IMG/VR virus record: IMGVR_UViG_3300008459_000181
Coordinates: 1 to 34,310 of that record
Direction: 5' to 3' (one strand)
Length of the DNA stretch: 34,310 bases
Origin: a virus
The notes beneath the pieces were generated by a model that saw only the letters and a program-made list of their open reading frames with translations, had not been told where the DNA came from and searched no databases. Below, piece by piece: positions 1,858 through 32,592 of the stretch. The position numbers and the translations under genes were made by a program. Positions within the stretch are counted from its first letter, which is position 1; each line of letters opens with the position of its first letter.

Positions 1858-2409
1858 ATGTATAAAACATTATCTTTAGATATTTCATCCACGACTATTG
1901 GCTGGGCCTTGATTGGCAACTCTGATGACAAAATTACTATCATAGAGCATGGTCACCTAAAGCCTGTTAAATCTGATTTATCTCTTGCAAATAGGGCTTT
2001 AAGATCTCAAGTTTTAATTAAAAATTTAATTAAAAAATATAATCCAGATAAAATTGCAATAGAGGATTATGTTACCAAGTTCTCTAGAGGAAAAAGTACA
2101 GCAAGAACAATTGTAGTTTTATCTGTTTTTAACGAAGCCATGAGCATGGCCTGTATAGAAGAAAAGAAAGTTGATCCAGATAAAATAGCGGTTATAAGTA
2201 TTAGAAGTTTACTTTCAAAATCTTTTGATCAAAAAATATCTTCAAAAGAAGAGTGTTTTGATTTCATCAAAACCATTCCATCATTTTCTGTTAAATATAA
2301 TAAGAACCAACAAGTAAAAAAAGAAACTTTTGACGAAGCAGATGCTGTAGCTGTGGGTATCTCTTCTATTATTAGGAGTAATAATGGCAAAAAATTTATC
2401 TTACAATAA
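1858..2409 (+). CDS. RuvC-like Holliday junction resolvase / crossover junction endonuclease
   Basis: The protein of 183 residues is predicted to cut branched DNA (Holliday junctions or replication/packaging intermediates). The RuvC-type RNase H fold is shown by an N-terminal strand with the first acidic residue (LSLDISSTTIGWALI, D8), a second strand with an acidic residue (KIAIEDYV, E69), and a C-terminal helix with two acids (TFDEADAVAVG, D159 and D162). These would form the metal-binding active site. The length is near that of bacterial RuvC. ATG 1858 is chosen over GTG 1813 because the latter would translate the terminator hairpin. Its last 26 bases overlap the chaperonin gene, so the two are likely co-translated. 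Confidence 0.8.
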   Translation: MYKTLSLDISSTTIGWALIGNSDDKITIIEHGHLKPVKSDLSLANRALRSQVLIKNLIKKYNPDKIAIEDYVTKFSRGKSTARTIVVLSVFNEAMSMACIEEKKVDPDKIAVISIRSLLSKSFDQKISSKEECFDFIKTIPSFSVKYNKNQQVKKETFDEADAVAVGISSIIRSNNGKKFILQ

Positions 2410-4030
2410 AGAAGCTAGAGCAAAGTTGCAAGCAGGAGTTGATAAGCTTGCAAAGACTGTTGCAGTAACGATGGGGCCTCAGGGAAAAAATGTTATTCTA
2501 CAAAAATTTGTAGGAAATCCAGTCATAACCAAGGACGGAGTCTCTGTGGCTAGAGAGATTGTTCTGTCAGATCCTATAGAAAATCTAGCCTGTCAGCTTG
2601 TCAAGGAAGCCGCCGGAAGGACTGCTGATATGGCAGGTGATGGCACTACTACTGCTACCGTTTTGACTCATGAAATCTTTTCTAGAGGTAATGAGCTGAT
2701 AAGCGAGAATTACAACCCACTTCATCTAAAGAGAGGTCTAGAGTGGGCAAGAGATCAGGTAATTGAGGGTTTAAATAAAATTGCAACACCAATTACAGAT
2801 TTTAATTCTTTAAAAAATATTGCTACAATTTCCTCAAATAATGACCAAGAAATGGGCGGACTAATTGCAGAAGCATTTGAAAAAGTTGGGTTTACTGGAA
2901 CGGTAACTGCAGAGGCTTGCCCAGGAAATACATCTTATGTAAGAGTTACAGATGGAATAGAATATAAGAAAGGCTATATCACATCAAACTTTATTGTAGA
3001 TGGTGGATCTGATATTGTATTGCAAAACTGTGCAATTATAATTACAACTCAAGAAATTACCTCATTAACTAGTGGTTGGATCAATATTTTAAATGAGCTA
3101 AGTGAATCACAAACTCCAATACTGTTAATTTGCAAGTCCTTAAAGCAAGAAGCTTTGGCAACTTTAGTTGCCAATAATAAAATTGGAAGGCTAAAATGTG
3201 TTGCAACAGAGCTTCCACCATATGCTAGAAATAATTCTGAATGGTTGGATGATCTCTCCATTCTTTTGGGAACCAAAATTGTTGGATCAGAATTTGGATT
3301 AGAGCCACAGGACTTAAAGAAATCAGATTTAGGATTTGCAAAAAGAGTTACAGTTGGAAAGTATGATACAAAAATTTTAGAGAGCAAGAAAAATACAGAA
3401 AGATTAGATTCTAAAATGGCAATTTACAAGGAAGATATTCAGAAGCTGTTAGGAGATACTGACAGGCTTGATATTAAGAAAAGAATGGAATACTTAACTA
3501 ATAAGGCCGCTGTTATTGTGGTTGGATACAACACAGAGCTAGAGCTAAGGGAGAAGGGTGATAGGCTAGACGATGCCCTTGGAGCCACTAGGGCCGCTAT
3601 AGAGGAGGGGTACGTCCCAGGTGGTGGTTTTGCACTATACCGTGCCGCTGAAATGGTGGACTTGAAAAAAGCTCCACACGAAATAAGGGAGGCCGCACAG
3701 GTTCTCCTAGAATCTTGCTCTAGACCTTTGAAGCAAATTGTAACCAATGCTTTTTGTGATCCAGAAGATATCATACAAGAAGCATCAGAATACCGAGGTA
3801 CACTAATTGGGTTTAATGCTTCTAATTGTGAGTGGGAGGATTTAGTTGCGGCTGGAGTTATAGATCCTAAAAAAGTTACAAGAACAGCACTAGAAAACTC
3901 GACAAGCATTGCCCTCCTGCTTATAAATACTGAAGCGGTTGTTTCCGATGAACCAGAGAAACCATCTGGTTGGCAACCACCAGCAGGGTGGAGACCACCT
4001 GAGTCTTCAAACTTAAATCATAAATATTAG
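2384..4030 (+). CDS. groEL: GroEL-type 60-kDa chaperonin
   Basis: The 548-residue protein is as long as E. coli GroEL. It would form a ring-shaped ATP-driven folding chamber for phage or host proteins in the cytoplasm. Equatorial signatures are present: VTMGPQGKNV (28-37), ITKDGVSVARE with D51 (E. coli Asp52), AGDGTTTATVL with D86 (Asp87), and DDALGATRAAIEEG with D397 (Asp398, needed for ATP hydrolysis) followed by VPGGG. The apical domain keeps QEALATLVANN. The start is fixed by AGGAG (2373-2377) before ATG 2384. The usual C-terminal Gly-Gly-Met repeats are replaced by a Trp/Pro tail (PSGWQPPAGWRPPE). No groES is visible in the window, so it may use host GroES or work alone, as proposed for some jumbo-phage chaperonins. 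Confidence 0.95.
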   Translation: MAKNLSYNKEARAKLQAGVDKLAKTVAVTMGPQGKNVILQKFVGNPVITKDGVSVAREIVLSDPIENLACQLVKEAAGRTADMAGDGTTTATVLTHEIFSRGNELISENYNPLHLKRGLEWARDQVIEGLNKIATPITDFNSLKNIATISSNNDQEMGGLIAEAFEKVGFTGTVTAEACPGNTSYVRVTDGIEYKKGYITSNFIVDGGSDIVLQNCAIIITTQEITSLTSGWINILNELSESQTPILLICKSLKQEALATLVANNKIGRLKCVATELPPYARNNSEWLDDLSILLGTKIVGSEFGLEPQDLKKSDLGFAKRVTVGKYDTKILESKKNTERLDSKMAIYKEDIQKLLGDTDRLDIKKRMEYLTNKAAVIVVGYNTELELREKGDRLDDALGATRAAIEEGYVPGGGFALYRAAEMVDLKKAPHEIREAAQVLLESCSRPLKQIVTNAFCDPEDIIQEASEYRGTLIGFNASNCEWEDLVAAGVIDPKKVTRTALENSTSIALLLINTEAVVSDEPEKPSGWQPPAGWRPPESSNLNHKY

Positions 4031-4038
4031 GAGATAAA

Positions 4039-5244
4039 ATGGCAAAAGCTGAAGAGAAATTGATGTCAGAAACAGAGGCATGGAAACAACTAGAAGAGCT
4101 ATTTGGATCAGACTCAGTTGTGAGACCAGATGAAGTAATCAAGACCGATATAATCAGATCAACAACCCCAGCCTTAGATAGAGCACTAGGTGTTGGTGGT
4201 TGGCCTCGCGGAAGACTGATTCAGTTGGCTGGAGCACCTAGCTCTGGAAAGACTCTTCTTGCCCTACTTGCCATTGCCGAATGGCAGTCAGAGCATCCAG
4301 ATAATTGTGCGGCATTCTTAGACGCAGAGTTTACCTATAGCGCTGAGTGGGCTGCAAAATTTGGTGTTGATAACGATAGAATTTATCTAATCAAGAGTAA
4401 TGAAGCTGCCAAGATTTTTGGAGGATTAGTTGGAAGGGTAAAAAAGAATGCTGTTACTGGAAAGCTGACAAAAATTCCTGGACTTTTTGATATGATTTCT
4501 TCTGGTCAAACTATTTCTTATACTCACCCAGAAACCAAAAAGAAGGTAAATTTAAATTGTGGAAGAATGGGCGTAATAGTTCTAGATTCAATTGCGAATC
4601 TTCAGGTTCCACAAGAAGTTGAGGCAGAGGTTGGAAAGTCTCTTATGGCGGCGGTAGCTAGATTTCTAACTGTTGAGCTAAAGAAGCTAACACCTGGAAT
4701 TGCAAAGGCTAATGTAGCCATGATTGGAATTAACCAGGTTAGAGTTAATCCTGGTCAAATGTTTGGAAACCCAGAGGATACACCAGGCGGTAAAGCACTC
4801 AAACACGCCTGCTCCATCATGGTAGAGGTTGGTCCTATGTCTGGTGCTGATAATCTTATTTTAGACTCTAGAGAGGAAAAGCAGGGTCATAAAATTAGAG
4901 CAAAAATAACTAAGAATAAATTAGCTGCACCCTTCAAGGTTGCTGAATTCTTTGTTGATTTTAGATCAGGTGTTGTAAGAAAGGGTGAAGAGCTATTAGA
5001 GTTAGGCGTAAAACTTGCTATGTTTGAGAGGCCAAACAATAGAAGTTACATTATAAATGGTGAAAAACTTAGCTCTAGAGATTCTGCAATCGAATATTGT
5101 GATAAAAATAAAGATTTAATTGAGGCATCAATTAGAGACTATTACCTATCTGGGGCAGACTCCTCCTCTGATATGTCAGAGGCCGTAGAGCAAGGAGATA
5201 CAGATAATCCATTTGATGACGAAATAGAGGGAGAAATTGTATGA
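4039..5244 (+). CDS. RecA/UvsX-family recombinase
   Basis: This is a 401-residue strand-exchange ATPase for phage recombination, repair and recombination-dependent replication. Walker A is GAPSSGKT (65-72). The catalytic acid segment is FLDAEFTY (E97, like E96 of RecA FIDAEHALD). Walker B is VIVLDSIANL, around residue 185. The DNA-binding loop and allosteric region appear as NQVRVNPGQMFGNPEDTPGG, then KALKHACSI. The C-terminal tail is highly acidic (DTDNPFDDEIEGEIV), as in RecA and many SSB-interacting proteins. ATTAGGAGATAAAATG sets the start. It overlaps the next gene by ATGA at 5241-5244. Partner proteins nearby are the candidate mediator, the ssDNA-binding protein and the resolvase. Confidence 0.9.
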   Translation: MAKAEEKLMSETEAWKQLEELFGSDSVVRPDEVIKTDIIRSTTPALDRALGVGGWPRGRLIQLAGAPSSGKTLLALLAIAEWQSEHPDNCAAFLDAEFTYSAEWAAKFGVDNDRIYLIKSNEAAKIFGGLVGRVKKNAVTGKLTKIPGLFDMISSGQTISYTHPETKKKVNLNCGRMGVIVLDSIANLQVPQEVEAEVGKSLMAAVARFLTVELKKLTPGIAKANVAMIGINQVRVNPGQMFGNPEDTPGGKALKHACSIMVEVGPMSGADNLILDSREEKQGHKIRAKITKNKLAAPFKVAEFFVDFRSGVVRKGEELLELGVKLAMFERPNNRSYIINGEKLSSRDSAIEYCDKNKDLIEASIRDYYLSGADSSSDMSEAVEQGDTDNPFDDEIEGEIV

Positions 5245-5603
5245 TACTAAGATGTAACCCAGGGTGTAAACTCAGCGATGGCACAACAGATGGATCATTA
5301 GACTTGGAGACAAATGAGGCCGTCTGTAATACATGTGGTGAAAATTTAAAAGGAATTTCTAGTTTTGCAAAAATTTCCATGAAAAACATAGGAGATGTAA
5401 AAAAGACTAATAAAAAGAAAGCCTTTGTTTTTCCTTGCAAAACATGTAATAAAAATGTAGAAGCAGAGGTGACTGCTGGAAAAGTTTCTGGAAAGGGCTG
5501 TAGCCATGGAGGATGTTTAATCAACATTACTGAATTTATGGTTAAAATGATCCAAGAAAATCAAGGCTCTGATTTTGAGGGAAATAAAGTAAATGCAGAA
5601 TAA
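5241..5603 (+). CDS. Double zinc-ribbon protein, possible separate zinc module of the primase
   Basis: This 120-residue protein has two cysteine clusters. The first is C5-x3-C9, then C29-x2-C32 (19 residues between pairs). The second is C66-x2-C69, then C87, H89 and C92. The spacing of the first resembles a DnaG/CHC2-type or ribbon zinc domain. It overlaps the recombinase gene by ATGA at its start and the primase gene by 11 bases at its end. The primase lacks the zinc-binding domain normally fused to its N-terminus, so this protein may supply DNA template recognition in trans. That role is inferred from position and cysteines only. A general DNA- or protein-binding zinc ribbon is the alternative. 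Confidence 0.6.
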   Translation: MILRCNPGCKLSDGTTDGSLDLETNEAVCNTCGENLKGISSFAKISMKNIGDVKKTNKKKAFVFPCKTCNKNVEAEVTAGKVSGKGCSHGGCLINITEFMVKMIQENQGSDFEGNKVNAE

Positions 5604-6357
5604 AGAACCTGAAATTTCTAAGCTAGTAGATATTTGTCATTCTAATTTAGAAAATTCAGAAAAATGCTTTTCATATTTAAGAAAAAATAGAAGGCTAAGT
5701 CTTGAGTTAATTAAGAAGTATAGGCTAGGATATTTTCCTCAAAATATCTCAAAACTAATTCAACATGTTGATGAAGAAGCTCTGATTAATACTAATATTA
5801 TTTCTAGCTACAAAAGCAGTGATTTTGCAAATTATTTCTATTTAGTTATTCCACTAATAAATGAGTATGGAGATTCTGTTGGAATTAGCGGAAGAGCACT
5901 GGTTAATGACGAAGAAAGGTCTTATCTTGGAATTCCAAAATATAAAAATTCTTCTTTTAAAAAAGCAAATTTTTTATTTGGATTAAATTTTTCTAAAGAA
6001 AAAATATTAAATTCTAATAATGTTTATGTAGTTGAAGGTTACTTTGATCAAATTGCAATGACACAAAGAGGTCTTGATAATTCTGTAGCTATTTGTGGAA
6101 CTGCCTTCTCTCAGTATCATTTTTATAAATTATCAAAATACTGTGATAAAATTACTTTTATATTAGACTCAGACGAAGCTGGTCAGAAATCTGCAGAGCG
6201 TATATATTCAAAATTTTTAAACAAAGGTATAAAATTAAGATTTTTAAAAATTCCAAAACCATTCAAAGATGTTGATGAATACTTTGCTGACCCATCTAAA
6301 AATAAATCTTCGTTTTTAAAAGAATTTAAACAAATTATTCCAGAGGATTGGGGATGA
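5593..6357 (+). CDS. DnaG-type primase core (TOPRIM) without zinc domain
   Basis: The protein of 254 residues is predicted to synthesise RNA primers for lagging-strand synthesis. Residues 24-135 match the DnaG catalytic N-subdomain in order: YLRKNRRLSLELIKKYRLGY, a middle FYLVIPLINEYGDSVGISGR, then SYLGIPKYKNSSFKKANFLF. The TOPRIM part follows: VYVVEGYFDQIAM with E148, a GTAFS segment (169-173), FILDSDEAGQKSAERI with D192 and D194, and FKDVDEYF. DnaG normally has about 580 residues. Both the N-terminal zinc domain and the C-terminal helicase-binding domain are absent. It is downstream of, and overlaps, a zinc-ribbon gene, suggesting a split primase. The stop overlaps the next start as ATGA. 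Confidence 0.85.
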   Translation: MQNKEPEISKLVDICHSNLENSEKCFSYLRKNRRLSLELIKKYRLGYFPQNISKLIQHVDEEALINTNIISSYKSSDFANYFYLVIPLINEYGDSVGISGRALVNDEERSYLGIPKYKNSSFKKANFLFGLNFSKEKILNSNNVYVVEGYFDQIAMTQRGLDNSVAICGTAFSQYHFYKLSKYCDKITFILDSDEAGQKSAERIYSKFLNKGIKLRFLKIPKPFKDVDEYFADPSKNKSSFLKEFKQIIPEDWG

Positions 6358-7345: not shown

Positions 7346-8884
7346 ATGAAAGATATTAAAAATATAGCAAGAGAAGCAAAAAAAGCTTTAGACCAATTAC
7401 AAAATGGAAAAAGCTATCCAACTAGTTATGTTCTAGATAGACTTGAAAAGGCTGCTACTAGAAATTCTGGAGACTCAGTTATTGGACACTTCAGAGATGT
7501 CATTCAAAAGGTGGCAAAGAGCAATCAATTTGTAAATCAGTCACAGCTGACTAATCTCTACCATGAACTAGCTGGCCTAGGCGGTGGAAGAGATAGATTT
7601 AGAAGAGAGCTAGGCGATCTTATTTTTGACAAGACCACACCAGTAATTGAAAAGGATGCATCTAGTGCAAGAATCTCCTATGAAAACGGCCTCCTCCCAT
7701 TATACGGTGAGTCAGAAGCTTCAAAAGAATTTGAAGGAGTCTTTTCTCTTGATAAAAAATCTTTCTCTTCTTTATCTGATAATATTATAAAGAAAGCAGA
7801 AAAGTTTACAAAAGTACAATTAACAGCCCTAGGATGCTCTCCAACTGCTGTCACCGCAGTTCATCACAATGAGCATTTTATCCTATGCAAGGCATCAGTA
7901 GACACATCAGATCACACACAAGTTGATCTATCTATTCCCGTAAAAATTGCGGGAGGAATTCCCTCTATTCCAGATTCTTTTATTCAGGACAACAAAGTTG
8001 TTAGACTTAATAAAGAAAATTTGTATGTTCACTTAAAGGACAAGCAGAATTTCAAGAAGAAGGCATCAAGATCAGCTTTTGAGGGTCAGAGGGCTGCACA
8101 TGACTTTAAGATGGATACACCAGTTGTTCCTGTTGCGCTTGAAAAATTTGCAGAACTAGAAGATAGCCTCGTAGCTGCCACCTCCAAGTATTCAAAGGAG
8201 CAGATAGGCGTTGCCTCTAATGTGCTAGCCGTAGAACTTAAGGGTATGGGAGTTGTAAATCCACAGATTAGAGTTGCATCATCTGATAATAGATATTTAA
8301 ATCTAAAGGCAGAAATTCCAACCACAAACGGTAGAGTTGATATTTTGGTTCCAGTAGAGTTTTCTTCTGGAAGACCAATCATTCCAAACTCGTTTAATGT
8401 TGGTGGAACAATCTATAAGCTAAATTCTGACTCCATCAATGCTTTGGTTAAATCAGCTAAAAGATCTGGAATAGAGACCATATCTAGAGAAGCAGAATCT
8501 ATGGAAAGATTATCTCATGATCAGCTACTAGATAGAATGGTATCAGGAGTAAGCTCTGGTGATCTAAAGACTGCAGAGGATGCTTTAAAGGTAATTGAGT
8601 CAAAATTTGGAGGACAGATTTATATTTCTGCTCTAGATCAATTTTCAAAATTACTCAAGCATGCATCTAATTCTGATAAAAGAGACTCTCTAATTAAAGA
8701 AGCCTTAAGAAAGGGTGACTTAATTTGGGTTCCAACATCTGTTGAGCCATTCTGTCCAAAGCTAGGACTTCCTGCATCAAAAATTGACTTTGATGCCAAG
8801 GGAAGACCAACACCTCTTAGAAAGGCCATGAGAGAGGGAATTGAAGGAGCTTTAATTAGTACATCAAAGGTGGTATTGTCATAA
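7346..8884 (+). CDS. Hypothetical protein with an internally duplicated alpha/beta domain, probably virion-associated
   Basis: The protein has 512 residues and no recognised family. Two related segments are visible: residues about 142-231 and 274-369. The clearest match is VDLSIPVKIAGGIPSIPDSF (193-212) against VDILVPVEFSSGRPIIPNSF (331-350), each followed by a strand and KLN or RLNKEN. Each copy is preceded by a helix of the AEKFTKVQL or SKEQIGVASN kind, so the unit seems to be helix, strands, helix. The C-terminal 120 residues are helical and basic. Several K-x-A segments (QKVAKSN, KKKASRSA, LLKHASNS) resemble those in the head proteins downstream. The stop overlaps the next start as TAATG. 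Confidence 0.75.
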   Translation: MKDIKNIAREAKKALDQLQNGKSYPTSYVLDRLEKAATRNSGDSVIGHFRDVIQKVAKSNQFVNQSQLTNLYHELAGLGGGRDRFRRELGDLIFDKTTPVIEKDASSARISYENGLLPLYGESEASKEFEGVFSLDKKSFSSLSDNIIKKAEKFTKVQLTALGCSPTAVTAVHHNEHFILCKASVDTSDHTQVDLSIPVKIAGGIPSIPDSFIQDNKVVRLNKENLYVHLKDKQNFKKKASRSAFEGQRAAHDFKMDTPVVPVALEKFAELEDSLVAATSKYSKEQIGVASNVLAVELKGMGVVNPQIRVASSDNRYLNLKAEIPTTNGRVDILVPVEFSSGRPIIPNSFNVGGTIYKLNSDSINALVKSAKRSGIETISREAESMERLSHDQLLDRMVSGVSSGDLKTAEDALKVIESKFGGQIYISALDQFSKLLKHASNSDKRDSLIKEALRKGDLIWVPTSVEPFCPKLGLPASKIDFDAKGRPTPLRKAMREGIEGALISTSKVVLS

Positions 8885-16683: not shown

Positions 16684-18354
16684 ATGAGAAGAAATCCAGG
16701 TCAGCCACAAAACATTAGCAAAAATGCAGCTAGTACTCTCTCTGAGGTTAGAAGAGCTCAAATATCAGAGGCTGTTGATAAACAAACTGATGCAAAAACA
16801 GAATCAAGCTATTATTCATCAATAGCTCACAGCCCATCTTTTAAGCAGGGTGGTTTCAACAAAAAGGCCTCAATAACCTCGCCAATGCCTGGTCCGCAGA
16901 CCTCTTATAACAATGATAGACTAGCTCCAGAGGTCTATTCTCCATTATTTCAACTAGCAAATCTAAATCTTCCAAGAGATAGAGTTACAATGAACGCTTG
17001 GAATAGAGTATTTTATGATACTCATCCAATCGTTAGAAATGCCATTAATTTGCACTCTAGCTATCCTATTAGCAAGATTAATATTACATGTAAAAATAAA
17101 AAAGTTCAACAATTCTTTATGGAAATGGCTGAAAGAATTGATTTATATTCAGTTGTATATGGTGCAGCTCTTGAGTTCTGGAAGATGGGAGAGAGCTTCC
17201 CATATGCAGAGCTAGATGAAAGTATGGGTGTTTGGAATAGAATAACTATTCTTAATCCAGACTTTATTCATGTTAAGAAATCTATTATAGGAAATCACTC
17301 TCAAGTATCTTTAAGACCAGATGCTGGTTTGGTTAGAATGGTAAACTCTAACCTGCCAGCTGATGTTGCCATGAAGAAGTTCATTCCAGCACACATCATT
17401 GATTATGTTAAAAAGGGAATGAATATACCATTGGATGATTTCAATATTTCCCACCTTAAACTATTAAGTTCCCCATATGATATCAGAGGGACCTCAATTA
17501 TTGTCTCTATTTATAAAGATTTGATGCTTTATGATAAACTTAGAGAGTCAAAATTTGCTCAAGCAGATGGAATGATTAATCCATTAACCCTAGTAACTCT
17601 AGGTGGTGATGGAGACTATAGGGCAACTCAGTCAGATATTGAAGCCTTTAAACAAGTTTTAGAAGAAGCACAATATGATAAAGACTTTAAGATAGTAACC
17701 CATGCTGGTGTAAAAATAGAAAGAAGTGGTTATAGCGGTGCAACTATGGATATAGCTGCAGATATTACTCACATCGTAGAGAATATCTATGCAGGTCTAA
17801 TGACTCCAAAGGCATTAATGGACCAAGAATCGGCCACATATGCAAGCTCCTCTGTAGGTCTTGATGTCTTAAGACAAAGATATGATGTCTTTAGAAATAT
17901 GATTAAAAAATGGTTAGAAAGAAAAATCTTTGCCCCAATTTGTGAGTTACAGGATTTCTTTGAATATAAAGATGGTGAGAAGAGACTTCTAGTTCCCACA
18001 ATAGACTGGAACCATATGAACCTTTATGATATGAACGACTATGTACAGCAAATTAGTCAATTTGTTGGAAATAAACAGGTTTCCCTACAAACATTGCACA
18101 GAAGTTTGGGCCTTTCTTATGAAGAAGAAAGAAGAAGAATTAGAGAAGAAATGATTGACGATCAAGTTTTTGCAAAAGAACAGCAAATACTTGGAAATAT
18201 GAGACTTTCAGAAATTCAAGGACTAGATCCAACAAGAGGCATACCAGAGCCTCCAGAGGGTACTGCGGGCGCAGCTCCAGCAGATGCAGGAGGAGGATTG
18301 CCTGGAATGTCACCGCCAGCTGGAGGGGAGCCTCCAGGTGGTCCACCAGCTTAA
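16684..18354 (+). CDS. Portal protein
   Basis: The 556-residue protein is read as the dodecameric portal through which DNA enters and leaves the head. Position directly after the large terminase and the overall pattern support it: an N-terminal Ser/Lys-rich arm with NKKAS, then RMTMNAWNR-type entry into the clip/stem region (VTMNAWNRVFYDTHPIVRNA). Residues 150-165 are YGAALEFWKMGESFPYAEL. A stem/crown part contains DITHIVENIYAGLMTPKALM and a helical segment DVLRQRYDVFRNMIKKWLER. The C-terminus (about 515-556) is a Gly/Pro/Ala-rich flexible tail. GGAG at 16670-16673 sets the start. No internal gaps or frameshifts are seen. Confidence 0.8.
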   Translation: MRRNPGQPQNISKNAASTLSEVRRAQISEAVDKQTDAKTESSYYSSIAHSPSFKQGGFNKKASITSPMPGPQTSYNNDRLAPEVYSPLFQLANLNLPRDRVTMNAWNRVFYDTHPIVRNAINLHSSYPISKINITCKNKKVQQFFMEMAERIDLYSVVYGAALEFWKMGESFPYAELDESMGVWNRITILNPDFIHVKKSIIGNHSQVSLRPDAGLVRMVNSNLPADVAMKKFIPAHIIDYVKKGMNIPLDDFNISHLKLLSSPYDIRGTSIIVSIYKDLMLYDKLRESKFAQADGMINPLTLVTLGGDGDYRATQSDIEAFKQVLEEAQYDKDFKIVTHAGVKIERSGYSGATMDIAADITHIVENIYAGLMTPKALMDQESATYASSSVGLDVLRQRYDVFRNMIKKWLERKIFAPICELQDFFEYKDGEKRLLVPTIDWNHMNLYDMNDYVQQISQFVGNKQVSLQTLHRSLGLSYEEERRRIREEMIDDQVFAKEQQILGNMRLSEIQGLDPTRGIPEPPEGTAGAAPADAGGGLPGMSPPAGGEPPGGPPA

Positions 18355-20336: not shown

Positions 20337-20625
20337 TTTAATTAAGAAGGCACAAATACTTGAAAGAGATCCAGTTTATGTTGCAACTGAACTGAGCAAA
20401 ATTATAAAAATAATGCTCAGCAGAATGTCTCCAGAAGCACAATCAAGATCTTTTACAAACGTAAAAAACAAAATAGAGAAATTTAACGTTATTGAAATAT
20501 CTGGCAAAAAGAATCCTGGTGGTGCAGCAATTGGTGTTAGTCTTGGTCTTGTAAAGAATGTTTTAAATGGAAAAGATCCATATTTTATTAATGTAGTATT
20601 GCAAGAGCTTTCAAAGAGGTTATAA
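20326..20625 (+). CDS. Small helical hypothetical protein
   Basis: This 99-residue protein is mainly helical (MSDDLIKKAQILERDPVYVA, ELSKIIKIMLSRMSPEAQSR) with a Gly-rich turn KKNPGGAAIGVSLGLVKNVL near residue 67. It overlaps both neighbours: 11 bases with the gene before it and TAATG with the gene after it. The family is unknown. Genes of this size between portal and protease often encode head-tail connector or adaptor subunits, but no such signature is visible here. Confidence 0.65.
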   Translation: MSDDLIKKAQILERDPVYVATELSKIIKIMLSRMSPEAQSRSFTNVKNKIEKFNVIEISGKKNPGGAAIGVSLGLVKNVLNGKDPYFINVVLQELSKRL

Positions 20626-22742
20626 TGAGAAAATTATCTTGGCCATATATTGGCGATACAGAGAATCAAATGGGATCTATGAAAGATTTTGGAAACTACA
20701 GAGATTTTATGGAAGAAGGTCAGACAAGACTGGATTCTCTTACTCCAGAAAAGTTTACGGTACAAGAGACTGCGGCGCCAACTGCATCTATTTCTAGCGG
20801 TAGAAGATTTGTTCTCTCCAATGATCCAACGGAGTCAAATATGTTTTTTGATTTTATTTTTAACGATGAAAGCCTACCAGACAATTCAAATATTTTGGTC
20901 ATATCAGATGATATAGATAATATTGAGTCATGTGCTTCTTCAAAATATAATGTTTTTTGTTTATCAAAAAATTCTAAACTATTTAGTGATAAAATAGTTT
21001 GCGAAGCTGGTGATTCAAAATATTATAAATTTAATAAAAAATTTGATTCATTTTATATTAATGAGGAAAATTTTGATAATTTAAAATTATCATTTTTAAA
21101 TTTAAATGATCAATTAAAAAACATATCTTATGGATATATAGATACTAGTCTTTCAATTTCAGATATAAAAAAGGCAGCCGTCTATGGCGGTTTAAATATC
21201 ACAGAATTTAGAAATCTTTCAGACTCTTATTATAAGATATCATTTAATAATTTGCAAAATTCCAAAATTATTGGGGTCTTAGGTAAAGATGGAGATACTA
21301 AGGCGGCTTTTATTTGTGACGTTGCAGATTCACATGAAAAGAAAATTTCTGGCTTACAATCTTACTCTACTATAAGAAATAGCTTTGGGTTGCTTTTTCC
21401 TTATAAAAAAGCAACAGATGTTTCATTTCATATGGGAACTGTTTCTTATCCTATTGACATTATATTTTTGGATGAAAATTCCATAATAAAGAAAATAGAA
21501 AAAGATATTCAGCCTGGATCACCTGGTCTTTTTTCATGCTCTAATATTCAAAATGTTTTAGAGATTAAAGGTGGAATGTCAAGCCGATTAGGAATTGAGG
21601 TTGGTGATGCAATTTTTATGGACTCTGCAAAAGAGTTAGCACACTCTAATTCTCTTGAGAAAAAAACTGCAATAACAACTTCTAAATACCTTCCTTCTTC
21701 AATAAATAAATATGGATCTGTTTCCATAAAAGTTAATGGCAAAGACTCTATAGTCAAGCAGGCATCTTTTTACGATTTAAAAAATGTTGCTATTATTGAT
21801 TTAGATCAGTTTTTAAATTATGATGTTAAAATTCATAAAATAAATTCTTATGATTTTAATAACATTAGAAATGTTATAGCATCTAGTCCAAAGACTATAG
21901 ATAATAACTATAAGACTATATCTATTGCTAAATATGCTTCAGCAGATCTACCTGATCCATACTGCCTCCCATCTACCACTTCTTCTTTTTCTGAAGCATT
22001 TAATTTAAATGTAAAAAAATCTTTAGAAGAAATTTTAAAATTTAATGGTAAAATTGTTTTAGCAACAAAAAATGATTTTGATTGGGAAAAAATTGGATCT
22101 ATTTTAAATTTTAAATCTAAAATTTTGTTTAATAAAAATTTTCCAGAATTTGAGACATTAAGATATCATAGAAATGATGATCTTTATCATGCTGCAAGCA
22201 ATAGATTTAATGATACTAATTTGTATTTTTTAAATAAAAAAGCTGGAATTCCAATACCAAGTGAAGACGTAGAAAAGGCAAAAAAATCAGAAGATTTATT
22301 TAAAAAAACAAATAAAAATTTAGATGATTTATTAAAAAATTTAAAAAAGAATCTATCTGCATATCAAACTATTCAGTCTGATAAAGAGCGTATAAAAGGC
22401 AGTAAATATGAGTATAATGAATCTGTAAAAAGAAACACAGAATTATTAAAAAAAATATTAACTAATATTAAAGAAGCACTTAAAATTATGAATGAAATAA
22501 AAGATATCTCTAATACTATAGAAATTATAAGTGCCGTAGCAACCTCTACAGTGAGGGCCTCAAAAGTTGTTAAGGAGATTTTTGATTTAGTTGACTCAAT
22601 AGAGAATGATGATTTTATTACTCAGTTAACTCAAAAAACTGGCGAGGTAGAAAATATGTTTATAGACCTTCGTAATTCTAGTCAAAGAATGATTAGCTAC
22701 ATTAATACAGATATTTTGGGAGTTTTGGTAATTACTCCCTAA
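20625..22742 (+). CDS. Large head-region protein with an embedded DUF192 domain and C-terminal coiled coil
   Basis: The 705-residue protein has three parts. Residues about 60-215 have alternating strands and helices (SNILVISDDIDNIESCAS, KKFDSFYINEENFDNLKLSF) that may be a degenerate Rossmann or methyltransferase-like fold, without a clear cofactor motif. Residues about 225-332 match the DUF192 (COG1430) pattern: KISGLQSYSTI, then FGLLFPYKKATDVSFHMGTV, YPIDIIFLDENSIIKKI, and VLEIKGGMSSRLGIEVGDAI. These correspond to the family's GLM, GMLF, WMKNT, PLDIVFID and VLEL-G-x-x-x-x-G-I-x-x-GD elements. Residues 540-690 are Lys-rich coiled coil. DUF192 proteins are usually small, often exported or membrane-anchored, and their molecular role is unsettled. 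It starts by TAATG overlap, between portal and protease, so it may be part of the head or its inner body. Confidence 0.75.
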   Translation: MRKLSWPYIGDTENQMGSMKDFGNYRDFMEEGQTRLDSLTPEKFTVQETAAPTASISSGRRFVLSNDPTESNMFFDFIFNDESLPDNSNILVISDDIDNIESCASSKYNVFCLSKNSKLFSDKIVCEAGDSKYYKFNKKFDSFYINEENFDNLKLSFLNLNDQLKNISYGYIDTSLSISDIKKAAVYGGLNITEFRNLSDSYYKISFNNLQNSKIIGVLGKDGDTKAAFICDVADSHEKKISGLQSYSTIRNSFGLLFPYKKATDVSFHMGTVSYPIDIIFLDENSIIKKIEKDIQPGSPGLFSCSNIQNVLEIKGGMSSRLGIEVGDAIFMDSAKELAHSNSLEKKTAITTSKYLPSSINKYGSVSIKVNGKDSIVKQASFYDLKNVAIIDLDQFLNYDVKIHKINSYDFNNIRNVIASSPKTIDNNYKTISIAKYASADLPDPYCLPSTTSSFSEAFNLNVKKSLEEILKFNGKIVLATKNDFDWEKIGSILNFKSKILFNKNFPEFETLRYHRNDDLYHAASNRFNDTNLYFLNKKAGIPIPSEDVEKAKKSEDLFKKTNKNLDDLLKNLKKNLSAYQTIQSDKERIKGSKYEYNESVKRNTELLKKILTNIKEALKIMNEIKDISNTIEIISAVATSTVRASKVVKEIFDLVDSIENDDFITQLTQKTGEVENMFIDLRNSSQRMISYINTDILGVLVITP

Positions 22743-22751
22743 GGAGATGGT

Positions 22752-22937
22752 ATGTTTTATAAATTTGGTGATAACACAAAAACAAAAACTGTGATTAAAA
22801 AAAGTTCTATTGAAAATCATAAAGATCATGAGAATAATGAACCTACTGAAATTTATGATGAAAATGACAACACAAATAGAAGATCTGCTATAATGAACAA
22901 ATATACTGAAGAAGAGATTCAAGAAGAAAATAAGTAA
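22752..22937 (+). CDS. Small acidic/Asn-rich hypothetical protein
   Basis: The protein of 61 residues is highly polar (KDHENNEPTEIYDENDNTNR) and probably disordered. It is accepted as a gene because TAAGGAGATGGTATG places an excellent ribosome binding site before ATG 22752, and it fills the space between the 705-residue protein and the protease with the same orientation. The gap after it (22938-22998) holds a 7-bp hairpin, AATCTTT 22937-22943 with AAAGATT 22950-22956, without a T run, and A/T-rich sequence that could contain a promoter for the protease. Confidence 0.55.
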   Translation: MFYKFGDNTKTKTVIKKSSIENHKDHENNEPTEIYDENDNTNRRSAIMNKYTEEEIQEENK

Positions 22938-22998
22938 ATCTTTTTACACAAAGATTATAAAAATTAATAATGATAATAATGTTTATCTTGAGGTTTAA

Positions 22999-25900
22999 AT
23001 GTTAAAGAAAATTTGTTATTCAAATGAGCCAGGAATAAAAACAGAATCTTCTGAGAAAGTTTTGGCCTCACAAGAATTGGTTGATAGATTAAGTAAATTA
23101 GCTACAGATGTTCGTGCAATTGCACCAAAATCAGATGATTTTCTTTATTTCTCCATTATCTTTTTAAAGTCAGCAGAATCTGCCTATCTTGATGATAATG
23201 GTAATATAAAAAAGATGTCAAGTGGAGAAGATGCCTGGGGATTCTTTGATGAGAATTGGAAATGGCATGGAAATGTTTTACCGCACCGAAACAATAATAG
23301 AGATATCTTTCCAGAGTCACAGCTAAAAATTGCTGCAAAAAAATGGGTAGGAATGCCATTATGCAGGGATCACGAATCAAGCTCAGTTGATGGAATTAGA
23401 GGCATTATTTTGGATGCCCATTATGATGAAAAGTTCAAACAAGTAGTTGGGTTATGCGCACTAGATAAGGTTAATTATCCAGATCTAGCTAGAAAGGTAA
23501 CCACTGGATTAGTTAGATACGGATCAATGGGTACTGCCGTTGAAGTTTCTATTTGTAGTGACTGTGGAAACAAAGCCTCTACTCAAAAAGAGTACTGCTC
23601 TCACGTTTTAAATAAAACTGCACACGGAGAAATAAACGTTGGATTAAAACCAATAGAATACTCTCTTGTAGTTCAGCCAGCAGAACCAGGGGCAATACTT
23701 TTGAGATGCCTAGCTTCACTGGAAGAATATCGAAATGAATTTTCAAACTACGGTGTTGAGAATGTAGATGAGATGCTAGGAAGACTCAACGAAAAGCAAG
23801 CCTCTCATCTTGAGACTATTATGAAGACTGCCTGTGGAGAAAATGGGTGCAGCATTCCTCAGCGCAAAAAGATCATAACAAGCTTTTTATCAAATAATGG
23901 ACTTATCAAAGAATCGGACATTAAAGACTCATCTAGTCAAGGAAGCTCCGACATTAAAGCCTATGCCTATCATGATGCTGGAGCAGGTACAGAAAGATTT
24001 ACCAGTGGTGAGCCAGGAGTAGAGAATCAGCTCTTTGGAACAACCTCTCCACATTCCATCTTAGGAACCAAAAACCCAGAGGATAAACCAGACTTTGCAG
24101 CAGATGGCGATGTGCTTAAACCTGTAAAGGAAACCTCTTCCGCCCCGCTTACAACTGTGGCTGGCGTAAAAGATTCTGACAAACTATCAATTAACCAATT
24201 ATTGGAGGATATAATGAGTGAAACAAATCTTAAGAAAAGAGCAGAGCTCCGCAGACGTGTTGCCTATATGCAGGGCGGAGAGTCCGTAGATGACAAATCT
24301 TATCGTGAGCCATCTACTTTCAAATCAGACAGAATGTCTGAGACAGTTAGAAACACCCAAGACCGTCACCTTCTACAAGATGGCGATATGCAGAAGCTAA
24401 CAAGAGAAGACATGGCAGTCAAAGAGAAGCTTTCCAGAGCAGAGCTTAAAGACTCTAGACTTCGCAGAATTGCTTATATGCAGGGCGGCGAATCAGTAGA
24501 CGACAAGTCTTATCGTGAGCCATCAACTTTTAAGTCAGACAGAATGTCTGAGACAGTCAGAAATACACAAGATCGTCACCTTCTACAGGATGGTGACATG
24601 CAGAAGCTAACAAGAGAAGACTTAGCCCTCAAGGAGAAGCTTTCTAGAGCCTCAGCCAAGGGAGCTTCTATGCAAAAGGTTGCATATACTGGCCCATCTT
24701 TAACTACAAGATTTTCTGTAAAGAGAAATCCTAATGGCACCGTTAATAAAACAGGTTCTGTCTTTGAGGTCTTCTCTGGAAACAAAAGAGTAATTGCAGC
24801 TACTGCTGGTCAAATTTTTGGATCAGATCTTGGCAGCAATTGGGAATGGATTAAGAGCGAAGAGTATGGAAAAGAAGTCTGCAAACAGATTAGAGCTAGC
24901 GGACTACCATATGTTTCAGGTCTTCTAAAGTCTGCACAAGAAGCAACTGATGCAGGTGCAGCCCTACCCCCACCTCCCGATATGGGTGCTGCCGCCCCAG
25001 CTGACGCAGGAGCAGCCCTCCCACCTCCACCTGATATGGGTGCCGCTATGGAAGGCGGCGAGGCTCCAGAGGCTACAGGCGAGGAAATGGCAGATGCCGA
25101 AGAGAGCGAAGACAAGTCAGACGATCCAGCAGCCCAAATTGATGAAGAGCTTTCTGGCATTGAAACTGCAGTCTCTGCAATTAGAGATTTAGTAAATGAA
25201 CTAAAAGACAAGCAAGAAGCAGATGTTGATGTAAATGTATTTACAGGAAAGAAGAAAGACGGAGAAGAAGAGGATGCTGATAAACTAGCACTCTCAAGAC
25301 ATCTCTTTAGCGGTCTTAAGAAGGCCTACAGACAGCTCGATAGCTCTGCAGATGAACTTGCTATGGTCGCAGAAACCTATGAGAATATTTCAAAACTCTC
25401 TTCTTCTCAAAGAAGAGAGTTTGTAAAACTCGCTACAGAAGCAAGAAAGGACTCTGCTAGAATTCTAGGAGAAGCAACATCTTTGGTTAGAGTTGCAAAA
25501 ACATTCATTAATGCTGGCGGACTTAACAAGAAAGCTCAAATACACTTAGAGGATAAAATGAAAGATAATTATGTAGATTATGAAGAAGACCATGTGCTCG
25601 GGCCAGATCTGGATATGATAGATGATACAAGCTATGCAGATGATAATTCAGACATGTTAGAGCAAGCAGATCCCTCACAAGATCTCGTAAGAGAGGCCAT
25701 GAATATGAGAAGGTCTCGCAGAGAGGCTATCGTCAAGCAAGCAGAGGCAAATCTACTCTCAAAGAGAGCTGCCGCTAGAAATGCTCTTCTTAAGAAAGCA
25801 GAGGGAGAGGATTACGCAAAAGACAGGCATAAAAAGCACGAAAAGCCAGAGGAAGAGAAGGGTGATGACCTAGACGAAGGTGACAAGACTGATGACCTCA

Positions 25901-26364
25901 ATGATATGAGCGCACTCCACACCATGAAGGGAATGGAGATGGGAATGAGATCTCAGGAGAATATGCCATCTGGAATGAAGGCTGGACCACAAATGTCAGA
26001 TGAAATAAAAGCATTTGATGTTAGAGCCTCTGCACTAAATAGCAGAATGCAACAAAAGAAGGCAGAAGAGGAAAGAGAGTCTTATAGAATCAAGCTTCGT
26101 CGCGCTTATGATGTTGGAATGGAAATGCAGAGAAAGGGACTACTCCCACACACCAAGGTAGCTCTTGACAAGCAAGTTGACGACATTATGGCATTTGATG
26201 ATGGAGCCTTTGAGGCCTTCAAGCGCAGCATTGCCAATGCAAAGTCTGTTAGAAATGTCAAAATTGCTAGCGATCTCGGCGGCGTCAATGTAGGCGTAGA
26301 ATCAGAGTCTACAACTCAAAATGGTGCAATCACTGCTGACAGGCTTTTATCACTCTGGGACTAA
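22999..26364 (+). CDS. Capsid maturation protease fused to a long scaffold-like C-terminal region
   Basis: The protein has 1121 residues. The N-terminal 240 residues match phage capsid maturation (prohead) proteases. VGMPLCRDHESSSVDGIRG supplies a candidate catalytic H125. YGSMGTAVEVS supplies S176 in the position of the family's S-x-G motif. A Cys/His cluster C186-x2-C189-x10-C200-x-H202 (CSDCGNKASTQKEYCSH) is the kind seen in actinophage-type maturation proteases. The remainder is low-complexity and helical: two 70-residue tandem repeats (421-560), a domain around 563-650, a Pro/Ala linker with DAGAALPPPPDMGAA twice, coiled-coil and acidic segments (700-770), and a charged helical end. This is what a scaffold looks like. 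Strong ribosome binding sites precede in-frame ATGs at 24214 and 25558, so shorter scaffold-only products are likely. Confidence 0.8.
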   Translation: MLKKICYSNEPGIKTESSEKVLASQELVDRLSKLATDVRAIAPKSDDFLYFSIIFLKSAESAYLDDNGNIKKMSSGEDAWGFFDENWKWHGNVLPHRNNNRDIFPESQLKIAAKKWVGMPLCRDHESSSVDGIRGIILDAHYDEKFKQVVGLCALDKVNYPDLARKVTTGLVRYGSMGTAVEVSICSDCGNKASTQKEYCSHVLNKTAHGEINVGLKPIEYSLVVQPAEPGAILLRCLASLEEYRNEFSNYGVENVDEMLGRLNEKQASHLETIMKTACGENGCSIPQRKKIITSFLSNNGLIKESDIKDSSSQGSSDIKAYAYHDAGAGTERFTSGEPGVENQLFGTTSPHSILGTKNPEDKPDFAADGDVLKPVKETSSAPLTTVAGVKDSDKLSINQLLEDIMSETNLKKRAELRRRVAYMQGGESVDDKSYREPSTFKSDRMSETVRNTQDRHLLQDGDMQKLTREDMAVKEKLSRAELKDSRLRRIAYMQGGESVDDKSYREPSTFKSDRMSETVRNTQDRHLLQDGDMQKLTREDLALKEKLSRASAKGASMQKVAYTGPSLTTRFSVKRNPNGTVNKTGSVFEVFSGNKRVIAATAGQIFGSDLGSNWEWIKSEEYGKEVCKQIRASGLPYVSGLLKSAQEATDAGAALPPPPDMGAAAPADAGAALPPPPDMGAAMEGGEAPEATGEEMADAEESEDKSDDPAAQIDEELSGIETAVSAIRDLVNELKDKQEADVDVNVFTGKKKDGEEEDADKLALSRHLFSGLKKAYRQLDSSADELAMVAETYENISKLSSSQRREFVKLATEARKDSARILGEATSLVRVAKTFINAGGLNKKAQIHLEDKMKDNYVDYEEDHVLGPDLDMIDDTSYADDNSDMLEQADPSQDLVREAMNMRRSRREAIVKQAEANLLSKRAAARNALLKKAEGEDYAKDRHKKHEKPEEEKGDDLDEGDKTDDLNDMSALHTMKGMEMGMRSQENMPSGMKAGPQMSDEIKAFDVRASALNSRMQQKKAEEERESYRIKLRRAYDVGMEMQRKGLLPHTKVALDKQVDDIMAFDDGAFEAFKRSIANAKSVRNVKIASDLGGVNVGVESESTTQNGAITADRLLSLWD
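24204..24216 (+). promoter_or_regulatory. Strong internal ribosome binding site and in-frame ATG within the protease/scaffold gene
   Basis: GGAGG (24204-24208) stands five bases before ATG 24214, in frame with the long gene (codon 406). It is as strong as the best ribosome binding sites of true starts in this window. A second, weaker candidate is AGAGG 25548-25552 before ATG 25558 (codon 854), also in frame. Confidence 0.6.
24214..26364 (+). CDS. Predicted nested scaffolding protein made from the internal start
   Basis: Translation from ATG 24214 would give a 716-residue product (MSETNLKKRAELRRRVAYMQ...) identical to the protease's C-terminal part but without the catalytic domain. Phage lambda makes scaffold Nu3 from inside protease gene C in this way, and other phages do likewise. 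The start falls exactly at the junction between the protease-type region and the tandem-repeat region, and codons beyond it include more CGT/CGC and C-ending forms than before it, which fits higher expression. The product would fill the prohead core and then be cut by the protease. This is a prediction from sequence only. Confidence 0.55.
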   Translation: MSETNLKKRAELRRRVAYMQGGESVDDKSYREPSTFKSDRMSETVRNTQDRHLLQDGDMQKLTREDMAVKEKLSRAELKDSRLRRIAYMQGGESVDDKSYREPSTFKSDRMSETVRNTQDRHLLQDGDMQKLTREDLALKEKLSRASAKGASMQKVAYTGPSLTTRFSVKRNPNGTVNKTGSVFEVFSGNKRVIAATAGQIFGSDLGSNWEWIKSEEYGKEVCKQIRASGLPYVSGLLKSAQEATDAGAALPPPPDMGAAAPADAGAALPPPPDMGAAMEGGEAPEATGEEMADAEESEDKSDDPAAQIDEELSGIETAVSAIRDLVNELKDKQEADVDVNVFTGKKKDGEEEDADKLALSRHLFSGLKKAYRQLDSSADELAMVAETYENISKLSSSQRREFVKLATEARKDSARILGEATSLVRVAKTFINAGGLNKKAQIHLEDKMKDNYVDYEEDHVLGPDLDMIDDTSYADDNSDMLEQADPSQDLVREAMNMRRSRREAIVKQAEANLLSKRAAARNALLKKAEGEDYAKDRHKKHEKPEEEKGDDLDEGDKTDDLNDMSALHTMKGMEMGMRSQENMPSGMKAGPQMSDEIKAFDVRASALNSRMQQKKAEEERESYRIKLRRAYDVGMEMQRKGLLPHTKVALDKQVDDIMAFDDGAFEAFKRSIANAKSVRNVKIASDLGGVNVGVESESTTQNGAITADRLLSLWD
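24259..24678 (+). repeat. Two tandem 210-bp (70-codon) repeats in the scaffold region
   Basis: Copy 1 is 24259-24468 and copy 2 is 24469-24678, with no length difference. A third copy begins (VAYTGPS) but diverges at once. The first 53 codons of each copy encode almost the same peptide (VAYMQGGESVDDKSYREPST and so on), while the DNA differs at many third positions. The protein sequence has therefore been held constant since an old duplication. The last 17 codons of the copies differ. Confidence 0.9.
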
Positions 26365-26373
26365 GGAGCTAAC

Positions 26374-26952
26374 ATGAGAATCAGAACAAATGGAGATGCT
26401 ATTGCTCATGAGTTTCAGAAGCTCATGAACAAAAAGCCAGCTCTAAATAAAAAGGCCTCATCTTCAGGCGAGCCAGTGGATTCTGTTAGTGGGGGAGATA
26501 CAACGGTATTGCTAGAGAAAACAAACTCTATCAGCGATGAAATAAGTGATGCAGATTTTGAGGGGTTAGTTAATGGTCCATCAGATCCTAATGACGACAC
26601 CTTAATTGATAAACTTGATGAATCACTAGAAGGCTTATCTGATGAGTCTGAGATGACAGGTCCAGTAAAGATGGCTAGAAAAACCGAATCTTTTATTTCT
26701 CCAAGGGGAATTAAGGTTATGCATGGACTTGGTAAAATTGCCGCAAGTCTAAGATCAAAAGGTGAAAACTTTGCCGCCGATGTTGTTGAGGCTACTGCAA
26801 TGTCAATCAGTGGAGATCTAAAGAAAGAGGCTTCAGAAAAAAAATCTGTAATTAATCATCTAAATAAAGTAGCTTCAAAATTAGATAGAAATGGTGATAA
26901 GTTTGCAGGTGATTTAGTCAGAACTACAATTGATAATATTATTAAAAAATAG
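26374..26952 (+). CDS. Hypothetical protein with duplicated C-terminal helical motif
   Basis: The 192-residue protein starts after AAGGAGCTAACATG, nine bases from the protease/scaffold stop. The N-terminus contains LNKKASSSGEPVDSVSGG, then an acidic middle (residues 54-95). The C-terminal 75 residues carry a duplicated unit: GLGKIAASLRSKGENFAADV (118-137) and HLNKVASKLDRNGDKFAGDL (162-181), each followed by a short helix. The same pattern appears once in the gene at 8884. The family is unknown. Placement directly after the scaffold suggests a core or minor head protein. It is followed by a strong terminator. Confidence 0.7.
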   Translation: MRIRTNGDAIAHEFQKLMNKKPALNKKASSSGEPVDSVSGGDTTVLLEKTNSISDEISDADFEGLVNGPSDPNDDTLIDKLDESLEGLSDESEMTGPVKMARKTESFISPRGIKVMHGLGKIAASLRSKGENFAADVVEATAMSISGDLKKEASEKKSVINHLNKVASKLDRNGDKFAGDLVRTTIDNIIKK

Positions 26953-26991
26953 TTCTAATTAAAATATAATAGGAAGACCTATTAATAGTAT

Positions 26992-27026
26992 AATAAAGGG
27001 AAGAGAAATCTTCCCTTTATTTTTTT
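26992..27026 (+). terminator. Intrinsic terminator with GAAA tetraloop
   Basis: AATAAAGGGAAGA (26992-27004) pairs perfectly over 13 positions with TCTTCCCTTTATT (27009-27021), with a GAAA loop and a following T run (to 27026). A smaller hairpin (TAATAGG 26967-26973 with CCTATTA 26978-26984) lies just upstream. This separates the protease/scaffold unit from the following head genes. Confidence 0.9.
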
Positions 27027-31560: not shown

Positions 31561-32592
31561 ATGTCAAATATATTCAATACCAATGGCGAAGTAAACGCCT
31601 CATCTGTTCAAGATGCCTTAGCCGCTATTGTTAAGTACGCAAGCATCATTGAAGATCTACAACCAAGCTCCTCAGCTCAAGCAATGGCTTCTTCATTAAA
31701 TGAAGACCAAAGAGATGAGATGATCAAGCAAGCACTCATGACCCAAGAGGGCAAGATTGCACTTGGTCAAGCTATGGCCAACCCAATCCGCAGAAACTTA
31801 GACTACCAAGGCGTTGCTAGAAAGGCCCTCGTTGTAGATCCTCTACCACAAGGCGCACTTCCAGTCTACGACCGTGATATCGACGTAGCTGCAGTAGTTA
31901 TCTCTTCTAACGGCACTGCCCCAGAGTCTCGTGTTTTCGGTGACCGCGTTACAATTCCAGAGTTTGAGATTGTTTCCAATCCAACTGTCAGAATTGCCGA
32001 AGTCAAGAGAAGAAGATTTAACGTTATTGACCGTGCCCAACAGAAGGCTCGCCAAGAGATTCAGGCCCAAGAAGATGCCAACGTCTTCGCAGCTCTCAAG
32101 TTCGCTGGTAGCAACGCTCTCGGCGGCGAAAACACCCCAGTAACCCTCGACCTCGGCGGTCCTACAGGCGGTGGTCCAGGTGGCGCTCTCACTAAGTCTG
32201 GTATGCTCGGACTCAAGAAGCAGATTGATCGTTGGGACTTAGTTACCTCTAAGTACTTCCTCAATATCAATCAATTTACCGACATCCTCGACTGGGAGTC
32301 TGCTGGTGTAGGTGGTGGTTCTCAGGTCGATCCAGTCACACAGAGAGAGCTTCTCCAGACTGGTCTCTATGGACACATCTTCGGTGCCGATATCATCGTC
32401 TCCAAGGTTGTTCCAGCTGGTGAAGCCTTCGCCTGTGCAGATCCAGAGTTCGTCGGTGTCATGCCAGTAAGACAGGACATCGAAGTTCTCCCTGCTGACG
32501 AGCCAAAACAACTTAAGCTCGGCTGGGTTGTCAACGAAATCATCGGCATCGGCATCGTTAACCCAAGAGGCGTTGCCTACGGTACTCTCTAG
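31561..32592 (+). CDS. Major capsid protein, HK97-like
   Basis: The 343-residue protein is the likely main shell protein. The first 88 residues are helical and charged (LAAIVKYASIIEDLQPSSSA, MIKQALMTQEGKIALGQAMA) and look like a delta domain that is removed during maturation. The segment RKALVVDPLPQGALPVYDRD (87-106) marks where the folded shell domain begins. A spine-helix-like ERNxxRAQQKARQEIQAQED portion follows (FNVIDRAQQKARQEIQAQED), then a Gly-rich loop, and then DVLPADEPKQL-like C-terminal strands (IEVLPADEPKQLKLGWVVNE). AAAAGGAGTATTAAAATG is among the best start sites here. C-ending codons dominate, which fits the most highly expressed gene of the window. A strong terminator follows. 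Confidence 0.85.
   Translation: MSNIFNTNGEVNASSVQDALAAIVKYASIIEDLQPSSSAQAMASSLNEDQRDEMIKQALMTQEGKIALGQAMANPIRRNLDYQGVARKALVVDPLPQGALPVYDRDIDVAAVVISSNGTAPESRVFGDRVTIPEFEIVSNPTVRIAEVKRRRFNVIDRAQQKARQEIQAQEDANVFAALKFAGSNALGGENTPVTLDLGGPTGGGPGGALTKSGMLGLKKQIDRWDLVTSKYFLNINQFTDILDWESAGVGGGSQVDPVTQRELLQTGLYGHIFGADIIVSKVVPAGEAFACADPEFVGVMPVRQDIEVLPADEPKQLKLGWVVNEIIGIGIVNPRGVAYGTL

Follow-up and report, generated by a model that had tools for sequence, protein, structure and literature searches.

Does the long open reading frame (ORF) at positions 22999–26364 of the virus record IMGVR_UViG_3300008459_000181 (IMG/VR) give rise to one protein or to two? The frame lies on the plus strand of the window analyzed here (the whole 34,310-base record; the parts of this gene and the portal and capsid genes given below are on that strand), is open for 1121 codons, and joins a head maturation protease to a long C-terminal part in a predicted protease–scaffold fusion of 1121 residues. 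A preliminary description of this DNA had proposed a scaffold start nested inside the protease gene, as in lambda gpC/Nu3 but with a far larger scaffold. That proposal is strongly supported at the sequence level by conservation of the start among relatives, synonymous constraint, a break in codon usage, and the gene organization of phage G. We conclude that the gene is very probably a nested pair, in which the fusion and a separately started 716-residue scaffold are made from one mRNA.

Homologues were collected from IMG/VR, with the protein itself and alignments as queries, giving 48 distinct relatives on contigs of up to ∼332 kb. The family is a lineage of large phages that metagenomes have supplied almost exclusively, and a search of bacterial genomes found no relative. 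In every full-length close relative, the frame runs unbroken through the protease and the C-terminal part; full-length relatives without an intein have roughly 1030–1230 residues, so a length of 1121 is normal for the family.

The proposed internal start is the ATG at 24214–24216 (codon 406), preceded by a Shine-Dalgarno (SD) sequence, GGAGG at 24204–24208, within a conserved TGGAGGA at 24203–24209. The GGAGG does stand five bases upstream of this in-frame ATG, as first described, and 716 residues follow, so that the nested coding sequence (24214–26364, a putative scaffold/core protein) uses the same stop codon as the fusion. Predicted pairing of this SD with the anti-SD sequence (−9.3 kcal/mol, the unit of all SD values below) is the strongest at any of the window's 179 in-frame internal ATGs and exceeds that of all 28 gene starts tested there; the fusion gene's own start at 22999 has −6.3. 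Accessibility of the internal SD is only mildly above background (0.52 vs. 0.46).

An ATG or GTG with an SD of −6.0 or stronger occurs at the homologous position, within one codon, in 47 of the 48 relatives, and 45 of them have an SD of −9.3 or stronger. Upstream of the start, the codon before a conserved Glu encodes Leu, Val, or Met, yet in the 45 standard-form sequences it is always TTG, GTG, or ATG. This form has been kept although the amino acid was replaced at least 12 times on the tree, against a family background in which TTG makes up 13% of Leu codons and GTG 9% of Val codons. The Glu itself is GAG in 45 of 45 aligned sequences, though GAA is the commoner codon in the family (53%). Replacement of Asp by Glu and of Ile by Leu, Tyr, Phe, or Thr is tolerated while GGAGGA is retained, and where the peptide is altered further (MGEIM in L135, KEEIM in L136, SKEEKNM in L142) a purine-rich SD persists (gggag, agagg, and aaggagg, respectively). 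The start codon varies in a similar manner, with GTG replacing ATG in relative L028 and the ATG displaced one codon downstream in L025. Synonymous divergence reaches its minimum for the whole gene at codons 402–404 (0.18–0.19 of expectation, rank 1 of 658–750 windows). What is conserved is the predicted start function, rather than the residues only.

Codon usage changes at about the same place. The suggestion that it shifts after the start toward the forms seen in the capsid gene held up: similarity to a reference composed of the capsid gene plus its neighbour is 0.53 upstream of the start and 0.67 downstream, the latter being the highest value in the window outside the reference genes and on a par with that of the gene at 1187. 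When 44 full-length relatives were scanned with a two-segment likelihood model, the mean optimum fell 6–11 codons past the start, and in 23 of the 44 the individual optimum was no more than 25 codons from it. In permutation tests of 15 sequences, the break was greater than in all 60 shuffles for the window, L001, L002, L021, L022, L026, and L028, but it did not exceed all shuffles in every sequence. Such a persistent difference in synonymous codons is consistent with translation of the two parts at different rates and would not arise from cleavage of one chain alone. The two halves could instead have brought different codon usage with them from different origins, but a break derived in that way should fade over time.

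Further support comes from Bacillus phage G, where the two halves correspond to separate genes, gp19 for the protease and gp21, whose counterpart in the scaffold half is a C-terminal module (26083–26241; BLASTP E 2e-8, 38% identity over 53 aa; hhalign E 1.2e-6). The phage G arrangement differs in that gp20 sits between the two genes and gp21 has its own GTG start and SD (−8.5). Because the relative of the distal half is a gene of its own in phage G, this organization provides strong circumstantial support for independent translation in the window's family.

The main competitor at the level of translation is that only the full-length chain is made, that the scaffold is freed by autoproteolysis in the linker, and that the SD-like letters are a by-product of the peptide L/V/M-E-D-I-M. 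We consider this improbable. Capsid proteases commonly cleave themselves to free themselves, and the peptide is well conserved, both of which speak for autoproteolysis; however, conservation is greater at the nucleotide than at the protein level, Met is replaced by Val as a GTG start in L028 and shifted by one codon in L025, and cleavage alone leaves the synonymous-codon break in most relatives unexplained. The SD-like site might otherwise act as a ribosome pausing or frameshift signal that terminates some ribosomes and thereby sets the protease:scaffold ratio. The ATG is followed by an A that creates a +1 TGA in most relatives, and a +1 stop lies 2–3 codons on in 45 of 46 sequences. Against this, no conserved slippery codons were seen, the +1 stop is a simple consequence of residue 407 being Asn, Ser, or Thr, the spacing suits initiation, the start codon is kept even when it is displaced or GTG, one sequence remains open for 71 codons in +1, and the L025 start lacks the following A. 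The −1 frame usually closes within 16 codons and the +1 frame within 3 codons in 45 of 46 sequences, and this rapid closing of the alternative frames disfavours frameshifting into a second product. On balance a pausing or frameshift signal is very unlikely.

Equally little probability attaches to the suggestion of a second in-frame site, and hence of three nested products, at the ATG at 25558–25560 (codon 854). A GAGG does lie four bases upstream of this in-frame ATG (SD −5.8), but the closest relatives already lack the pair: L001 and L002 have the ATG without the SD, L109 lacks the ATG, and no relative examined has both. The surrounding region is a variable acidic linker, and we reject the third start. 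A less remote alternative, though still unlikely, grants that the internal start is used but takes the 716-residue product for a protein retained in the virion, either internal to the head or ejected. Packaging of many internal proteins is common in large phages, and this product is large, contains a small beta domain, and carries tandem repeats; for its counterparts in phage G and the actinophages, the records examined give no experimental role. Against this, the product is fused to the protease, is encoded upstream of the capsid gene, is predicted to be mostly helical, and occurs in every relative, all of which fit a core or scaffold protein.

Several observations also count against a nested scaffold start. 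Equally strong SD-like sites precede internal ATGs that are not conserved (L111 codon 692, L114 codon 690), so SD strength by itself proves nothing. Of the two control genes, the annotated Mu Z start has an SD of −7.4, 1st among the internal starts of gene I, but the annotated lambda nu3 start has only −2.7, 11th of 33. SD strength is thus helpful without being decisive, and conservation therefore carries the argument. In L143, one of the most divergent relatives and the only one without a strong site, GGAGG is missing and AAGGA (−5.6) precedes a plausible Met385. The relatives are not independent samples, and binomial figures are therefore indicative only. Finally, a scaffold function is suggested by position, helical prediction, and local homology to gp21, and the AF2 (AlphaFold2) models of both halves are of low confidence.

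If the nested start is used as we propose, ribosomes initiating at 22999 would make the 1121-residue protease, linker, and scaffold as a minority product, whereas those binding the internal GGAGG would make the 716-residue scaffold/core alone from 24214 in larger amount. The free scaffold would guide assembly of the capsid protein. Because the scaffold part is shared by both products and would co-assemble, it would carry a few protease molecules into the prohead. There the protease, once activated, would presumably cleave itself as well as the scaffold and other head proteins, with the fragments leaving before DNA packaging. In vivo use of the start, an excess of the short form, a scaffold role, and the proteolytic cycle are inferred, co-assembly and the excess by analogy with lambda and Mu; the stronger internal SD (−9.3 vs. 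−6.3) and the codon-usage break bear on that excess only indirectly.

The arrangement would operate as C/Nu3 does in lambda and I/Z in Mu, but the protease lineage appears to be unrelated. In lambda, a scaffold gene is nested in frame at the 3′ end of the head protease gene and shares its stop codon (C 4418–5737, nu3 5132–5737 in the lambda record), a nesting described by Shaw and Murialdo (1980, as cited in PMC8508860). One gene is common to protease and scaffold in both lambda and P2 (PMC8508860), and lambda protease C, scaffold Nu3, and the portal take part in an initiator complex (PMC3224144). The differences are that Nu3 has 201 residues rather than 716, that gpC is annotated as S49 in its record whereas the window's family matches PHROG 18299 and 2774, and that the nu3 SD is weak whereas the internal SD here is the strongest in the window. 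Mu likewise has a protease gene, I, with an annotated internal start for scaffold Z, whose SD beats that of gene I itself (−2.0), but Z has only 183 residues. In Burkholderia phage BcepSaruman, the homologous protease gp85 precedes a 568-aa gene, beyond which lies the capsid cluster; gp85 and gp84 are separate genes, and the homology noted is that of gp85.

The protease half (22999–23913) matches PHROG 18299, ‘head maturation protease’ (1.4e-13), and PHROG 2774 (4.3e-17). Homology to phage G gp19 spans residues 31–242 (hhalign E 1.9e-23), the annotated BcepSaruman head maturation protease also matches this half (hhalign E 2.6e-15), and the N-termini of actinophage proteins are homologous to it as well. 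Candidate catalytic residues are His125 (23371–23373) and Ser176 in an SMG motif (23524–23526), both invariant in 12 diverse homologues, and Glu220 (23656–23658), which is E or D and nearly invariant across the same set. A zinc-ribbon-like insert of the form C..C...C.H lies at 23554–23604, with C186, C189, and C200 invariant. Homology, insert, and His/Ser pattern together identify a protease of the phage G gp19 type. Assignment to the HK97-type prohead proteases (MEROPS S78) was not supported, with an hhalign probability to HK97 gp4 of 0.2–0.4%; Ser176 aligns with the MSVG motif of HK97 gp4 in a match that is not significant, and Pfam S78_2 was matched in one member only (E 0.083). The AF2 model of this half, with a predicted local distance difference test score (pLDDT) of 45, was unusable.

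In relative L139, the protease half is split by a 370-residue intein with a LAGLIDADG homing-endonuclease domain (L139:4897-6009; Pfam Intein_splicing 5.6e-14, LAGLIDADG_3 5.4e-11), which adjoins an NNN-DIFPE motif just upstream of the candidate catalytic His. Several head-region products of the window are enriched in a hydrophobic-K-x-A motif, e.g., those of 7346–8884 (7 vs. 1.4 expected), 24214–26364 (7 vs. 2.1 in the scaffold), and 31561–32592, and among the window proteins compared the motif was absent from the portal. The motif might be a recognition or cleavage site of the protease.

The internal start had been placed exactly where the protease-type region ends. This needs correction in one respect, since protease homology stops at about residue 243 and a variable linker follows (∼300–395; gapped, low-identity columns at 23914–24180); the start itself opens a second conserved block. 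Just after it begin two tandem 70-residue repeats (AYMQGG...EPSTFK...KEKLSRA) at 24253–24462 and 24463–24672. Copies within a protein share a mean identity of 68% (87% in the window) vs. 54% for orthologous copies between relatives, which suggests concerted evolution. The AF2 model of the 716-aa product (mean pLDDT 60) is mostly helical (helices 305–338, 351–434, 487–539, and 595–640), contains a small beta domain, and has linkers of low confidence; Foldseek matched it to phage G gp21 with a probability of 1.00 but an E of 0.05. Sequence searches of the PDB with both halves gave no relevant match.

Beyond the window's family, actinophages too carry protease fusions whose C-terminal part is long, with a small gene and next the capsid gene downstream, namely in Mycobacterium phages Alice (gp90) and Myrna (gp97), Rhodococcus phage E3 (gp77), and Gordonia phage Stormageddon (gp13). 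Myrna gp97 (L037:4839-8474), recorded as ‘tape measure,’ is by homology such a fusion upstream of the major head protein. The actinophage proteins differ in that their C-terminal sequence is hardly alignable (hhalign of the scaffold half against the Stormageddon C-terminal part gave no significant match, and the first ∼20 residues after the internal start resemble their Stormageddon counterpart), in that the SD is weaker or rival sites are present, and in that no candidate nested start is as clear as in the window's family. Such candidates are unannotated in the actinophage records examined. They include ATG449 of E3 (SD −8.0) and the site AGGAACCGCCAACATG, common to Alice- and Myrna-type phages (SD −5.6 to −6.0). 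Among other relatives, the sisters L145 and L146 swap GTG302 (SD −11.7) and ATG303 (−12.2) right after a short protease domain (codons numbered in the ORF matched at 6001), and L150 and L151 have candidates at ATG373 (−12.6) and ATG647 (−11.8). These wider-lineage starts are a lead rather than a result because several of the proteins carry other, stronger SD-like sites. We regard the chances as even that a nested start is general to the whole phage G-like head-protease lineage, Ceeclamvirinae mycobacteriophages and other actinophages included, with switching between nested and separate forms and a scaffold that is always independently translated.

The fusion gene sits in a head module with a portal gene (16684–18354; PHROG 16240, 3e-42) and its downstream partner, the major capsid gene (31561–32592; PHROG 2522, 5e-72; NF042927, 1.6e-56). 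Directly upstream of the protease gene in this head-gene region, a 705-aa protein (20625–22742) has a central DUF192 domain (5.9e-19). The window also encodes a GroEL-like chaperonin (2384–4030; Cpn60, 9e-57) and RecA-like, primase-like, sigma-like, and tRNA-nucleotidyltransferase-like genes. An Rfam search of 22500–27000 gave no match.

The kind of arrangement described here is already known; in the openly accessible literature we found no paper describing the nested gene of this lineage, nor its lineage, size, and depth of conservation. The lineage records examined label the product as one long ‘protease’ or ‘hypothetical’ protein, or in Myrna as the ‘tape measure,’ and given this single-protein annotation the main head-assembly protein may be missing from them. 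The internal start would represent a conserved regulatory element that sets the protease:scaffold ratio in large-phage heads. If nested starts prove general to the wider lineage, then the gene-within-gene solution would have arisen independently in lambda, in Mu, and in this lineage. The nested form of the window's family and the separate form of phage G offer a natural comparison, and why protease and scaffold share a frame becomes directly testable.

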